Shown here: in pieces, positions 2,982 to 8,072 of the stretch
Layout of the letters: every line of letters begins with the position of its first letter
Numbering within the stretch: the first letter of the stretch is position 1
Assembly (NCBI GenBank): GCA_003696125.1
Contig: RFHZ01000348.1
Coordinates: forward strand, 1 to 8,072
DNA: 8,072 nt
Direction: 5' to 3'
Source of the DNA: Nitrospinota bacterium
GTDB lineage: Bacteria > Tectomicrobia > Entotheonellia > J063
Translations under genes and position numbers: made by a program
Notes under the pieces: generated by a model
Database searches by the model: none
What the model saw: only the letters and a program-made list of their open reading frames with translations
Told to the model about the DNA's origin: nothing

Positions 2982-5126
2982 TTAACTCCCCTGCCCCAGA
3001 GCACGTTCAAAGTGCTTCTGCGTGATAACGATCTTCTCCAGCACCGACCGTTCCATCGGCTGCTCCTGGGCCAGAAATTCTCGCATGGCGATCCTGGCCG
3101 CTTTCCGGCAGACCGCTTCGATATCGGCCCCCACACAGCCCTCCATGCGGGCGGCCAGCGAGGTAAAATCGACATCTGCGGCCAGCGGCTTCCCTCGTGT
3201 ATGGATGGTAAAGATCTCTATCCGCTCTTCCAGGGAGGGACGGGGCACTTCCAGCAGCAGCTCAAAGCGTCCCGGGGTGAGGAGAGCCGGGTCAATGGCC
3301 TCGATACGGTTGGTGGCGGCCAGCACGATTACTCCTCGCAGGTCTTCGATGCCATCGAGTTCGGTGAGGAGCTGGCTGATCACCCGTTCGGTCACGTGAG
3401 AATCCCCTTCCCTCGACCCGCGAATCGGGGCCACGGCATCGATCTCATCGAAGAAGATGATGCAGGGGGAAGCCTGTTTGGCCTTGCGGAAGAGTTCCCG
3501 CACGGCCCGTTCCGATTCTCCGACGTATTTGGAGAGGAGGGCCGGTCCTTTTACCGAGATGAAGTTGGCCTGGCTCTCCGTGGCCACGGCCTTGGCCAGC
3601 AGCGTTTTTCCTGTTCCTGAAGGGCCGTACAACAGGATGCCCTTGGCCGGCTGGATGCGAAGATGCTCGAACATCTCCGGGTAGCGCAGGGGCCACTCAA
3701 TGGCCTCGATGAGCTCTTGCTTGACCCGGCCAAGACCGCCCACTTTCTCCCAGCCCACTTCGGGCAGCTCCACATAGAGCTCCCGGATGGCAGAGGGGTC
3801 GATCTCTTTGAAGGCTTCCATGAAGTCATCCATGGTGACCTGGAGCTGGAGCAGGGTTTCGTAGGGGATGGAGTCGGTTTCAAACTCGATTTGCGGCAGG
3901 GCTTTGCGCAGGCAGAGCATGGCCGCTTCACGGCAGAGGGCTTCCAGATCGGCTCCTACAAAGCCGTGGGTGATGTTAGCCAGCTCCTCCAGCTTGACGT
4001 CAGGGGCCAGGGGCATTCCTCGGGTGTGGATCTCCAGGATCTCCAGGCGTCCCCGTTTATCCGGGATGCCGATGGCGATCTCCCGGTCAAAGCGTCCCGG
4101 CCTGCGCAGGGCCGGGTCGATGGCGTTGGGGATGTTGGTGGCGCCGATGACCACGATCTGGCCGCGTGCTTCCAGTCCGTCCATCAGCGCGAGCAGTTGG
4201 GCCACCACGCGTTTTTCCACGTCTCCCTGCACGGTTTCACGTCGGGGAGAGATGGCATCGATCTCGTCGATAAAGATGATGCTGGGAGCCTTCTTCTTGG
4301 CCTCTTCAAAGATCTCCCGCAGCCGGGCCTCGCTTTCCCCGTAAAATTTGTGGATCACCTCGGGCCCGTTGATGGCGATGAAGTGGGCTTCGGTTTCGTT
4401 GGCCACTGCCCGGGCGATGAGCGTCTTTCCCGTGCCGGGTGGGCCGTGCAGGAGCAGGCCCTTGGGGGCCCCGATCCCCAGGCGATCGAACACCTGCGGG
4501 TATTTGAGCGGGAGCTCGATCATCTCCCGGACCCGCTGGATCTCCTTGTTGAGTCCTCCGATATCCTCGTAAGAGACCTTCTGGCCGGGACGGCGGAGCT
4601 GGGTGCCTCCCAGCTTGATCCGGATAGAGGTATAGGGCTGGGCGGTGACCTCACCTCCCGGAATCGTCTCCACCACGGAGAAGTCGTGGTATCCGGCCCC
4701 AAAGAGGTTGATACGGATGCGATCACCCTGGACGAGGGGCAGGCCTTCTATCAGCTTGCCGATATATTGATCCTCCCGCTTTTTGGGTACACCACGGAGT
4801 TCGGTTAAGGGGGCGAGTACAATCTGGCTGGCAGGTTTGGGAAAGGCCCGTTCTATGGTCACCCGCTCATCGATCCCCACTCCACTGTTCTCGCGTGTGA
4901 TTCCATCGATCTGGATGAACTTTTTGCCGGCAAATTCGTCGTCGATGGCCATGACCTTGGCCACGGTCGTCTTCTTTCCGGTGATACGAATGACATCTCC
5001 AGGCTGTACACCGAGCGCCTGCATATCGTGGAAATCGATGCGGGCGATCCCTCGCCCTACGTCCTTAGAAAGGGACTCTATCACTCGCAGGCTGATCTGC
5101 ACGCCGTTCGGAGGAGTTTGTGACAT
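2982..5126 (-). CDS. Cdc48/VAT-family double-ring AAA+ ATPase
   Basis: A 714-residue homologue of archaeal VAT and eukaryotic p97/Cdc48, a hexameric unfoldase that threads proteins through two stacked ATPase rings. Domain order: an N domain with double-psi barrel at about 10-95 and its second lobe at about 100-175; the D1 ring with Walker A GPPGTGKT (228-235), pore loop KFYGESE, Walker B FIDEID (285-290), sensor ATN (329-331) and both arginine fingers in RRPGR (R342, R345); then D2 with Walker A GPSGTGKT (501-508), pore loop KYVGESE and Walker B FFDEID (E561). In D2 the first arginine-finger position is Thr (LLTPGR, T617), while the second Arg (R620) remains. The C-terminus (ALGQGS) has no HbYX proteasome-docking motif. 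A TTG at 5135 is in frame, but AAAGGAG is only two bases from it and eleven from the ATG at 5126, so ATG is preferred. First gene of the minus-strand unit. Confidence 0.95.
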
Positions 5127-5151
5127 AGGCGACAAGACTCCTTTCTATACG

Positions 5152-5502: not shown

Positions 5503-6492
5503 GTGGTTGTGATCTTTGGTCCGCAGAATGACCCGTGTGTTCACCACACCTCGCGCTACCTCCGCCAGCAAGGAGAAGAGGTCCTCCTCGTCGAGGATGC
5601 CTCGCGGCTGGCTTCTGGCGGTTTGTGCTGGGCACTCGACCGTCCCCACAACGAGAGCTACTTCCTTGTTGACTCCCAACCCATCCCCTTTGCCTCCCTC
5701 TCCGGCATTCTCCTCCGTACCCTCCCGGAGAACCAAAGCCAGCCAGAGATGAGCTTACCGGACCAGCAGTATATCGCCTCTGAACTTCAGGCGACCCTGG
5801 TCGGCGTCTTCCATGCCCTGCCCTGCCCGGTCATCAACCGTCCCCTCCCCTGGCGATTCCACCGCTCGCTCATGGCCGGCTGGGAACAGGTCAACCTCAT
5901 TACCGGTTGCGGCCTACAGCTCCCCCCTACCCTGATCACCTCCCGGTATGAGGAGGCGGCCTGCTTCTATGCCCACCACGGGCAGGCCATCGTAAATACA
6001 CCGGCCAAGCCAGACCACCGGCAGTCGATCCGGGGAAAGGAGGGGACAGAAGAGCTTAAACGCCTTTTTGCCCAACAGTCGCTTGCCCTCCAGGCCGTGC
6101 CGTCTGGACAATGGCTACAGGTGTTTGTCGTGGGACAGCAGGTCTTCGGCGCAACACCGCAGAGTGCTCTGCTGGAGGAGGGGATCGGGGAACCTCTCCT
6201 CCAGCCTGTCGAGCTCTCCCCTACCCTGCAGCAACGGTGCTGCCGGCTGGTACAGGGACTCCAAATCGACTTTGCCCAGCTCTGCCTGCTCCAGGCAGAG
6301 CGAGAGGTGTACTGCTTTGACATCCATCTCCTTCCCCAATACGAACAGTGTGATTCCCGGCTTCAGGAGCGGATTGCAGCGGCACTGGCCACCCTCCTGA
6401 GCCCGGGAGAAAAGGAGCTTAGAGATGATTCTCCTCCTGGGCAGGCTGGACGATCCGATGATCGCCTATGTCTGCACCTGCCTGCTGGCTAG
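5503..6492 (+). CDS. Degenerate ATP-grasp-fold protein, paralogue of the next gene (probable pseudoenzyme)
   Basis: A 329-residue protein that aligns along its length with the following ATP-grasp gene: MVVIFGPQNDP with MILLLGRLDDP, VINRPLPW with VVNRPSAV, a strand ending RLVQGLQIDF with HLARGLDLMM, and VYCFDIHLLP with YYCFEVNPAP. The residues that bind nucleotide and metal in the family are changed: the strand lysine of IYKS becomes Asn (IVNT, N165), the IDIR Asp/Arg pair is absent in the matching QWLQV region, and the E-x-N metal ligands become D-x-H (D273, H275). It is therefore probably non-catalytic, perhaps a structural or peptide-binding partner. GTG 5503 is the chosen start. The last 23 residues (from about 307) come from a 68-base overlap with the next gene, are not seen in the paralogue, and may result from loss of an earlier stop. 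Fold assignment rests on the paralogue and is moderately sure. Confidence 0.8.
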   Translation: MVVIFGPQNDPCVHHTSRYLRQQGEEVLLVEDASRLASGGLCWALDRPHNESYFLVDSQPIPFASLSGILLRTLPENQSQPEMSLPDQQYIASELQATLVGVFHALPCPVINRPLPWRFHRSLMAGWEQVNLITGCGLQLPPTLITSRYEEAACFYAHHGQAIVNTPAKPDHRQSIRGKEGTEELKRLFAQQSLALQAVPSGQWLQVFVVGQQVFGATPQSALLEEGIGEPLLQPVELSPTLQQRCCRLVQGLQIDFAQLCLLQAEREVYCFDIHLLPQYEQCDSRLQERIAAALATLLSPGEKELRDDSPPGQAGRSDDRLCLHLPAG

Positions 6493-7372
6493 AAAGGTCG
6501 ATTTTCTGGTGATCGATCCCCGTCATTCCCCGCACCAGTGTGCCCTGACCTGGACCATGGAGCAGGGGAGGATGCACGGTTCGCTCTGCTACGGACGGCA
6601 GGAAGTGGCCCTGGCCGATATCGGGTCGATCTATATCCGCCAGTTGAGAAGACCACCCCGGTCCCAACAGACCCCTCCCCCCGGCCAGGACCAGACGCCA
6701 CAGCCTTTTCCTCTCTCCCGCTGGCTGGCCACCTTCAGCGAAAACGTGCCGGCTCTGGTGGTGAATCGACCCTCTGCGGTCAGCTCTAATCTCTCTAAAC
6801 CCTACCAGCAGCAACTCATCGCCAGACATGGTTTTCGTGTACCGCGCACGCGGGTCACCACCCTTCCCGCGGCGGTGACCCGCTTTTACGAGGAGTGCCA
6901 GGGACGGGTGATCTACAAGTCGATCAGCCATCAACGCTCCATTGTCCGGCGCATGACACCCGGAGATCTCTCCCGGCTCGCCCAGGTGCGGTACTGTCCC
7001 ACCCAGTTTCAGGAGTACATCGCCGGCATAGACATACGCGTGCATACGGTGGGAGAGCGGGTCTTCGCCACCGAGATCCTCTCCGAGGCGACCGATTACC
7101 GGTACGCAGGCCGTGAGGGGGCACGACGGGCGATACGGGGCATAGAGCTGCCGGCAGAGGTGGCAACACGCTGCCTCCACCTGGCCAGGGGCCTGGACCT
7201 GATGATGAGCGGCATCGATCTGCGCCGGAGTCCTGACGGGGACTACTATTGCTTCGAGGTGAATCCGGCGCCTGCCTTTATCTTTTACCAGACTTACACC
7301 GGACAGCGGATCGGCGATGCCCTGGCCGATCTGCTCTGTCAGGGGATGGCATGCAGGAAAGGAGACCGATGA
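6425..7372 (+). CDS. RimK-like ATP-grasp ligase of a putative RiPP cluster
   Basis: A 315-residue ATP-grasp enzyme. Members join a carboxylate to an amine, hydroxyl or thiol through an acyl-phosphate made with ATP. An N-terminal pre-ATP-grasp region (1-115; MILLLGRLDDP, VDFLVIDPR) is followed by the ATP-grasp core: VVNRPSAV (112-119), the ATP-contacting K165 in VIYKSIS, the adenine-hinge stretch QFQEYIAG (194-201), D203 and R205 in IDIRVHTVG, IDLRRSPDG (264-272) and the metal-ligand motif FEVNPAPAF (277-285, E278 and N280). All expected catalytic residues are present. A good AAAGGAG (6411-6417) sits seven bases before ATG 6425. It overlaps the preceding gene by 68 bases and its TGA overlaps the next ATG (ATGA, 7369-7372), so expression is coupled to the PqqD gene. 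Substrate is unknown; the downstream small peptide is the obvious candidate. Confidence 0.92.
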   Translation: MILLLGRLDDPMIAYVCTCLLARKVDFLVIDPRHSPHQCALTWTMEQGRMHGSLCYGRQEVALADIGSIYIRQLRRPPRSQQTPPPGQDQTPQPFPLSRWLATFSENVPALVVNRPSAVSSNLSKPYQQQLIARHGFRVPRTRVTTLPAAVTRFYEECQGRVIYKSISHQRSIVRRMTPGDLSRLAQVRYCPTQFQEYIAGIDIRVHTVGERVFATEILSEATDYRYAGREGARRAIRGIELPAEVATRCLHLARGLDLMMSGIDLRRSPDGDYYCFEVNPAPAFIFYQTYTGQRIGDALADLLCQGMACRKGDR

Positions 7373-7842
7373 TGGCAGAGGAAAGACAGGGACCTCCACC
7401 AGGTCCTTTTATCCCCACCGAGTTGAGACCGTCTATGGAAGCAGACGAAGCCACACCTCCCCTGGCGCCGGACGCTTCCCTGGAAGAGATGGGGAGACAC
7501 GCCCGGGAGGTGGTAGGGGAGGCGCAATGTGTACCGGTTGACATCACTGGCCGCGACGAACAGGCAGCAATCTGGCAGACCAGGTTCATGCAGAACCCGG
7601 AGGTGCAGTGGACGGCCCTGGACGGGGAAGCGGTGCTGCTCGATGTCGAGACCGGCAGGTACTATACCCTGAACCGGGTCGGTTCGGTGATCTGGGAGCT
7701 TTTCACGGGTGACCGGTCCCTGGCCGAGATCCTCTCTGCCGTGTGCGAGCGGTTCTCTGTCTCCACCGGGATTGCCCGGCAGGATCTCCTGGCACTGGTA
7801 ACACAACTGCGCCAGGAGGGATTACTCCAGGAAAGGAGGTGA
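7369..7842 (+). CDS. PqqD-family RiPP recognition element protein with N-terminal extension
   Basis: A 157-residue protein whose C-terminal half (about 76-157) is a PqqD domain, the small winged-helix fold that binds RiPP leader peptides and presents them to the modifying enzymes (as PqqD or lasso B1 do). Signature pieces: VQWTALDGEAVLLDVETGRYY for the beta-strands (given here as VQWTALDG, AVLLDVETGRYY), LNRVGSVIWELF (101-112), LAEILSAVCERF, and DLLALVTQLRQEGLL (139-153). The first 75 residues are not part of the domain: Pro/Gly-rich at first (GPPPGPFIP), then probably helical (LEEMGRHAREVVGEA), with one Cys. Stand-alone PqqD proteins are generally about 90 residues, so the extension is unusual. 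Its ATG shares bases with the upstream TGA, and AAAGGAG lies four bases before it. A second ATG at 7372 is equally usable. Confidence 0.88.
   Translation: MMAEERQGPPPGPFIPTELRPSMEADEATPPLAPDASLEEMGRHAREVVGEAQCVPVDITGRDEQAAIWQTRFMQNPEVQWTALDGEAVLLDVETGRYYTLNRVGSVIWELFTGDRSLAEILSAVCERFSVSTGIARQDLLALVTQLRQEGLLQERR
7832..7839 (+). promoter_or_regulatory. Ribosome binding site for the peptide gene
   Basis: AAAGGAGG lies inside the last codons of the PqqD gene, eight bases before GTG 7848. This is the strongest ribosome site of the cassette and supports the short 46-codon gene as real and highly translated. Confidence 0.75.
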
Positions 7843-7847
7843 AGCCT

Positions 7848-7988
7848 GTGGAGAAGGAAGTGAAGAAGGAGGTCTACCAGACCCCGCTTCTCACCCGGCA
7901 TGCCCGGTTGCAGGATCTGACCGGCAGCCCCTCGAAGTACGGTGAGGTGGATGAGAAGGTAGTTCTGAATGCGGAAGTTTTCGAATAG
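7848..7988 (+). CDS. Putative RiPP precursor peptide with lasso-type leader
   Basis: A 46-residue peptide starting at GTG 7848, five bases after the PqqD stop, with AAAGGAGG at ideal spacing. The charged N-terminus (MEKEVKKEV) is followed by YQTPLLTRHARLQDLTG at 10-26. This fits the lasso leader pattern Y-x-x-P-x-L-x-x-x-G-x5-T with Y10, P13, L15 and T25, but has Ala (A19) where Gly is usual. In known lasso peptides the conserved Thr is the penultimate leader residue, which would put cleavage after G26 and give a 20-residue core SPSKYGEVDEKVVLNAEVFE (S27-E46). E33 or D35 would then be core position 7 or 9, both normal ring-closing sites. Cleavage before G26 would instead place E33 at position 8. 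The core also has Ser/Lys donors and many Glu/Asp acceptors for ATP-grasp crosslinking. Precursor identity is inferred from motif and context. Confidence 0.75.
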   Translation: MEKEVKKEVYQTPLLTRHARLQDLTGSPSKYGEVDEKVVLNAEVFE

Positions 7989-8012
7989 GTTAGACGCTTC
8001 TGCCTACACCAC

Positions 8013-8052
8013 CAGGGGATCGGCGGTCTCGACCAGGATGGCTGATCCCCTG
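8013..8052 (+). repeat. 9-bp stem inverted repeat downstream of the peptide gene
   Basis: CAGGGGATC (8013-8021) and GATCCCCTG (8044-8052) are perfect reverse complements around a 22-base loop, which itself contains GGTC-TC-GACC (8025-8034). It starts 24 bases after the peptide stop. There is no run of T after the stem, so it is not a standard Rho-independent terminator. It could protect or end the upstream message, or reduce read-through so that the peptide is made in excess of later enzymes. Confidence 0.5.
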
Positions 8053-8072
8053 AGCGGCAGGAGGGCCTACTC

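Follow-up and report, generated by a model that had tools for sequence, protein, structure and literature searches.

How is a peptide with a lasso-type leader presented to a graspetide-type ATP-grasp ligase when a PqqD protein is encoded between the two? The question is raised by a candidate gene cluster for a ribosomally synthesized and post-translationally modified peptide (RiPP) at the right-hand end of an 8,072-nucleotide stretch of Nitrospinota DNA (the window), which is the whole of one contig (G000:C674) in a 4.18-Mb metagenome-assembled genome (MAG; 990 contigs, 95% complete, 8% contaminated). We think it probable that the cluster encodes a graspetide-type pathway in which substrate recognition has shifted to a tagged PqqD adaptor. 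An earlier reading of the letters alone (the sequence-only reading) had described four coupled plus-strand genes that match neither the lasso nor the graspetide type. All four are present, with a 68-base overlap between genes 1 and 2, an ATGA overlap (7369–7372) between genes 2 and 3, and a 5-base gap between genes 3 and 4, and the unusual combination of PqqD, an ATP-grasp pair with a degenerate member, and a lasso-type leader is upheld. The features, with RRE standing for RiPP recognition element, are as follows:

5503–6492, plus strand: gene 1, pseudo-ATP-grasp partner (GTG start at 5503; weak match to TIGR04187, 38 bits, E = 1e-9; catalytic residues lost)
6425–7372, plus strand: gene 2, predicted active graspetide-synthetase-type ATP-grasp ligase (TIGR04187, 141 bits, E = 3.7e-41; Pfam RimK, 28 bits, cutoff 21)
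7369–7842, plus strand: gene 3, PqqD/lasso-B1-type RRE protein, extended at its N-terminus by 86 residues (PF05402 at residues 87–153)
7405–7437, plus strand: putative recognition tag PFIPTELRPSM (F[IV]xxxxRP) inside the PqqD extension, shared with neighbors of the ATP-grasp pairs of relatives
7627–7827, plus strand: PqqD (RRE) domain (hmmscan)
7848–7988, plus strand: gene 4, precursor peptide 1, MEKEVKKEVYQTPLLTRHARLQDLTG/SPSKYGEVDEKVVLNAEVFE (GTG start; lasso_leader_L3, 17.2 bits; second copy on contig C637; homolog in locus L131)
7875–7925, plus strand: lasso-type leader by sequence, from YxxP to Thr at −2, YQTPLLTRHARLQDLTG
7926–7985, plus strand: predicted core, SPSKYGEVDEKVVLNAEVFE, with cross-linking proposed to occur at its Lys and Glu/Asp side chains
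8013–8052, plus strand: strong RNA hairpin 3′ of peptide 1 (z = −4.5 for a 58-nt segment)

A conserved pair of ATP-grasps, one of them degenerate

Seven key residues (K125, K165, R205, R226, D265, E278, and N280) are kept by the active ATP-grasp in 18 of 18 aligned loci, the window included, while all or nearly all of them are lost in the 18 upstream partners; L141 is a nineteenth locus with the pair. Gene 1 of the window has lost all seven. In relatives the degenerate gene lies directly upstream of the active one, mostly with a 4-nt overlap. The solved structures closest to gene 2 were PsnB and CdnC, with RimK far behind (140 vs. 58 bits), and gene 2 is thus predicted to be a graspetide-synthetase-type ATP-grasp with an intact active site. 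Because an AlphaFold2 (AF2) model of gene 1 (pLDDT, the predicted local distance difference test, 80) found its top PDB matches in CdnC, PruB, PsnB, and MdnC (E about 1e-18), gene 1 is, as modeled, a pseudoenzyme with the graspetide-synthetase fold. The dead partner likely contributes to a heteromeric complex or to tag binding; we propose that the active enzyme works with this paralog, probably as a hetero-oligomer. A microviridin-like pair of active ligases was considered and rejected, the first enzyme lacking every tested residue; in microviridin, two paralogous ATP-grasps form the links, as the main text of Makarova et al. 2022 (PMC8939145) describes.

Relatives came from a genome-contig scan, which returned four at 40–46% identity (Acidobacteria, two Sphingopyxis, and Mycobacterium) before identity fell to about 30%, and from searches that covered about 1,990 genomes. 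These added members in the phyla or classes to which known center genomes belong: Myxococcota, Acidobacteriota, Chloroflexota, Alphaproteobacteria, and Actinomycetota. No family member was found in the Planctomycetota search and no homolog in the viral contigs searched, and the homologs returned by tblastn against plasmids were all remote enzymes of the MvdC/MvdD type, set among different genes. A genome of the same class as that of the window (G004) has a 33% identical homolog around which the cluster is absent. One relative, L140 (7700–8106), has an intact ATP-grasp, a partner reduced to a C-terminal remnant, and no tagged neighbor, and is apparently a decayed locus.

The tag and the proteins that carry it

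At each of the 19 intact loci, the window among them, one gene adjoining the ATP-grasp pair carries the tag F[IV]xxxxRP. The extended form F[IV]x4RP.[VLMI] has 15 occurrences in 585,001 amino acids of open reading frames, 14 of them in pair-adjoining proteins. The sequence-only reading had overlooked both the wider family with Lys/Glu-rich substrates and the presence of the family's substrate tag on PqqD in the window. At 16 of the 19 loci the tag is on a likely substrate without PqqD; at the other three it is on PqqD itself. The charged neighbors carry it as F[IV]xxxxRP[x][VLM] (e.g., PFISKEERPSV and HFIQQSQRPDV), and a Lys/Glu/Asp-rich stretch is found in 15 of the 16 tagged proteins without PqqD (weaker in L124, absent from L135). 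This charged repeat can be a protein of its own or the C-terminal portion of a larger one, either a peptidase (M6, M43, or S8) or a kelch protein. Lys/Glu-rich C-terminal tails with the tag lie beside the dead/active pair at L027 (5106–7214), L028 (5279–7240), L123 (9893–11320, minus strand), L124 (1666–3630), and L141 (6024–7451), on proteins that include M6, S8, and M43 peptidases and one kelch protein. The charged, tagged proteins and tails are likely the substrates of the ATP-grasp pair, which at these loci would recognize F[IV]xxxxRP within the repeat-bearing substrate.

Two likely substrates, in L119 (7707–8525) and L120 (6889–7680), have long, regular (xKD)n triplet repeats. The tagged, subtilase-like protein of L135 (1769–3109, reverse-complement coordinates) is missing the charged repeat, unlike its close relative in L028, a loss that may reflect assembly collapse.

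Charged repeats of this kind could equally be used as a scaffold for side-chain ligation, and gene 2 also has matches, though weaker, to the RimK/LysX family. Both points allow for an enzyme that works as RimK does, attaching a separate amino acid or small molecule to the Glu/Asp or Lys side chains of a PqqD-delivered peptide and making no intramolecular cross-links. We regard this as unlikely, however: the macrocyclases PsnB, CdnC, and MdnC are the nearest enzymes, well ahead of RimK, and in the substrates a carboxylate and an amine are adjacent. Cross-linking by the pair is the activity that we prefer.

The PqqD form comprises the window, L131, and L122, and in all three the tag lies 7 to 14 residues from the PqqD start and a gene for a YxxP-leader peptide comes next. 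L131 belongs to a genome from the Chloroflexota search, a different phylum from that of the window, and the full gene order recurs there: a dead partner (with the same 68-nt overlap), the ATP-grasp, PqqD with LFISSALRPPV, the peptide MKYEQPLLLEHGALRDVTGTGVKYLKEKLEKDIKDVKEKLESDKVLF, and an HprK. L122, from the Myxococcota search, has a dead partner, the ATP-grasp, PqqD with PFIGAGLRPLY, and a YVPP-leader peptide, followed by a 2-oxoglutarate (2OG) oxygenase and an ABC transporter (the latter named by inspection). The peptide is thus kept beside these genes in two homologous loci; the lack of any such locus would, by the sequence-only reading, have refuted the proposal. A search within the order of G794 yielded no additional PqqD form.

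Against PF05402, with a cutoff of 23.4, gene 3 of the window scores 70 bits; against the lasso B1 models it scores 56 bits, under their cutoffs of 70–80. Its extension is conserved in L131 and L122; plasmid PqqD relatives align to the window protein only from about residue 57–86 onward. A single-sequence AF2 model of the protein was poor (pLDDT 57), with no predicted secondary structure in the first 36 residues.

At every other locus the tagged protein is the likely substrate, and from the position of the tag one might take the PqqD extension to be what is modified, the small peptide being handled by other enzymes. We give this very little credence. The extensions in the window and L122 do not look like substrates because they have no Lys, and they are not charge-rich; in L131, moreover, it is the peptide that carries the Lys/Glu-rich core. 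An adaptor role for the tagged PqqD is the reading that we follow.

Its origin is suggested by the maximum-likelihood tree, in which the PqqD-linked ATP-grasps of the window, L131, and L122 form one clade (support 99), whose sister is L025 plus L133 (support 100 for all five). In L025 and L133, the gene directly downstream of the ATP-grasp, in the position that PqqD has in the clade, encodes an N-terminal tag and a Lys/Glu-rich core, and an alignment of all five N-termini holds across the tag and, loosely, across the helix-like stretch that follows. The simplest account is that a PqqD domain replaced the charged core, with the leader tag kept, and that the core came to be encoded by a small gene of its own, behind a leader to which PqqD could bind. 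L131 links the cis-tagged and PqqD forms, because its peptide combines a lasso-type leader (YEQPLLLEHGALRDVTG; 19.8 bits against lasso_leader_L3, above the cutoff of 19) with a Lys/Glu-rich core (TGVKYLKEKLEKDIKDVKEKLESDKVLF).

The peptide, its second copy, and the extent of the cluster

The window peptide has 46 residues, and its leader score is slightly below the same cutoff, although the YxxP and penultimate Thr of lasso leaders are both in place. The tag is absent from it, whereas the relatives that have no PqqD, 16 in all, carry the tag in cis. The window peptide aligns with the L131 peptide at TGxxxKY, and the second peptide copy also at a C-terminal VLF.

That second copy is on contig C637 (L004). 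The end of the window matches the start of C637 on the reverse strand (91% over 69 bp) within a tandem repeat that contains the peptide, and C637 goes on with the second peptide copy, an HprK-like kinase (HprK_rel_A, 72 bits, under cutoff), and a lasso B2 protease (Transglut_core3, 56 bits with Pfam; NF033537, 55 bits, cutoff 33) fused to NTP_transf_5, and then mdh, sucC, and sucD (these three by inspection). C637 almost certainly continues the window cluster. The link has independent backing because the HprK directly after the L131 peptide is related to that of C637 (50% identity over 325 amino acids). Among lasso clusters, the combination of a B2–nucleotidyltransferase fusion and an HprK-type kinase is already known (PMC8498205).

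The sequence-only reading had suggested looking for lasso B2, asparagine synthase (cyclase), and transporter genes to the right of position 8072. The B2 gene is there, and the right-hand genes are RiPP genes and not an unrelated pathway, but neither a lasso cyclase nor, on C637, a transporter was found. For the cyclase, a search of the 95%-complete genome with PF00733 (cutoff 21) gave two partial matches, of 21.2 and 20.2 bits, both away from the cluster; the gap between the contigs lay outside this search. A lasso peptide cluster proper was rejected, as no Asn-synthetase-like cyclase was found in the cluster or the genome.

The peptide frame, whose conservation had been in question, is borne out by the tandem copy: the leader is the same except for a Leu-to-Phe change, the first 11 core residues are identical, and the second half of the core differs. 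At least one further peptide unit probably lies between the contigs, because the two repeat copies are not identical. Compared at the nucleotide level (window 7809–8072 vs. L004 5538–5773, minus strand), the copies diverge abruptly in the second core half and share the hairpin; from these sequences the change looks like diversification of the core end. The hairpin is repeated after the peptide units on C637 (L004 5528–5600 and 5749–5825, minus strand), and between two of its copies a G-C pair has changed to U-A with the stem kept. Possibly it sets expression of the peptide relative to the downstream genes.

The missing cyclase leaves room for another proposal, namely that the ATP-grasp pair substitutes for it: once B2 has cut, the pair would link Ser1 to Glu7 or Asp9 in an N-terminal macrolactam, and the product would be a lasso or branched-cyclic peptide. 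The cluster does have B1, B2, and a lasso-type leader with Thr at −2, and Ser1 with Glu7 and Asp9 in the core has the spacing of a lasso ring. Yet the pairs of relatives adjoin long Lys/Glu-rich proteins, for which an N-terminal ring is implausible, and in L131 the core is rich in Lys/Glu, with no B2 in the vicinity. We therefore consider an N-terminal ring very unlikely.

We propose instead that PqqD (B1) holds the small peptide by its YxxP leader and uses the tag to dock it on the ligase pair; the pathway would in that case depend on PqqD, a prediction from sequence. The ligase would activate Glu/Asp side chains with ATP, most likely joining them to Lys (or Ser/Thr) of the core, the HprK and the nucleotidyltransferase domain would tailor the peptide afterwards, and the B2 domain would cleave after Thr-Gly at the leader end.

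Several observations weigh against this proposal. The PqqD form is seen in three loci only, one of which, L131, lacks a B2 nearby. Core specificity may differ, since the cores of the window peptide and its second copy contain less Lys/Glu than other substrates and the L122 core offers few residues for cross-linking. The join of the window to C637 rests on the repeat and on gene content across an unspanned gap, in a MAG with 8% contamination. This last point touches on whether the gene association might be fortuitous, the locus being decayed or mosaic or the MAG wrongly assembled: the MAG is in 990 contigs, the repeat lies at the end of both the window and C637, and L140 among the relatives is decayed. 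On the other side, the frames are intact, the 68-nt overlap is also found in L131, the gene order is repeated in another phylum, and G+C is equal (0.61 in the cluster and 0.61 in C637). A chance association strikes us as hardly credible.

Relation to known systems

Graspetide synthetases bind a leader motif within the substrate itself. With that motif apparently moved to an RRE adaptor, one enzyme family would serve both cis-tagged and RRE-delivered substrates.

The cluster shares with the graspetide systems (PsnB/plesiocin, MdnB–MdnC/microviridin, CdnC/chryseoviridin, and ThfB/fuscimiditide) the enzyme fold, in both active and dead form, and cores with Asp/Glu plus Lys or Ser/Thr. It differs from them in that the peptide has no tag in cis, a separate RRE protein bears it, and the enzyme is accompanied by a conserved dead paralog, lasso B1 and B2, and a kinase. 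With the paeninodin and pseudomycoidin lasso clusters (PMC8498205) it has in common the YxxP leader with Thr at −2, PqqD/B1, the B2–nucleotidyltransferase, and the HprK-type kinase, but it has an ATP-grasp pair in place of the lasso cyclase and no C-terminal Ser for the kinase.

A dead-beside-active arrangement is already on record: in the main text of Makarova et al. 2022 (PMC8939145), a truncated inactive ATP-grasp is typically beside an active one in branch 8, and branches 7 and 8 are linked to peptidases of unrelated families, with no precursors predicted. The arrangement is the same here, except that the window partner is degenerate and not short, and the peptidase linkage resembles our loci with Lys/Glu-rich tails. 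By this resemblance the present family is likely branch 7/8 as outlined there, and, with branch identity no more than likely, the charged tails are good candidates for its substrates. The PqqD form is not described in that main text.

A synthetase that needs a partner protein has been reported for rosaritide (MirB/MirC) and corallotide, the MirC domain being weakly RRE-like (PMC13097080). The rosaritide partner is a PpiC-like chaperone, whereas here the partners are a dead ATP-grasp and a substrate-tagged PqqD. In corallotide, Lys isopeptides occur alongside a 2OG oxygenase (PMC13097080), an enzyme that hydroxylates the cross-linked Lys, and the L122 gene set may mirror this combination: the 2OG-Fe(II) oxygenase and ABC transporter after its YxxP peptide (10740–13189, reverse-complement coordinates) recall corallotide. 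Groups 33 and 39 of the same study, with synthetases near a transglutaminase fold, might overlap with the clusters described here.

An HprK-related kinase is also common to the HPr-rel-A (TIGR04352) and GAK (TIGR04355/TIGR04356) systems, the former with a PqqD protein as well. Both were rejected, as neither kinase nor ATP-grasp is above the system cutoffs (HprK 72 of 200 and 37 of 200, PqqD 21 of 35, and no grasp_GAK match).

Engineered lasso–graspetide chimeras likewise bring a graspetide synthetase and lasso machinery to bear on one peptide, and a leader can be placed at either core end; they carry two leaders in cis, and their products were described as unseen in nature (PMC13003496); here recognition is proposed to occur in trans, via PqqD. 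A literature search that left out many subscription papers found no published natural example of the combination. We lean, by a modest degree, toward the fuller account in which the precursor was split, the tagged leader being fused to an RRE to give an adaptor and the core placed behind a lasso-type leader. The cluster would then be a natural lasso–graspetide hybrid and the first graspetide pathway to depend on an RRE, and the wider family, with its dead and active ATP-grasps and its Lys/Glu-rich tails on secreted proteases, would supply the substrates of an orphan ATP-grasp branch. If true, two pathways held to be separate are apparently joined in a natural counterpart of what has so far only been engineered (PMC13003496), the tag may be a portable means of directing an ATP-grasp cross-linker, and an ATP-grasp branch without any substrate in the main text of PMC8939145 gains likely ones.

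Three further observations concern ATP-grasp homologs and the rest of the window. The myxobacterium Hyalangium versicolor (G067) has nine ATP-grasp homologs of the broad type in one genome, including two adjacent pairs. A plasmid of a Rickettsiales endosymbiont (Candidatus Megaera) carries a family-related ATP-grasp (L015 5710–6558); after it come a hypothetical protein and two genes whose annotation is isopenicillin-N-synthase-type dioxygenase. The window itself also encodes, at 2982–5135 on the minus strand, a CDC48/p97-type AAA ATPase in a bacterium.

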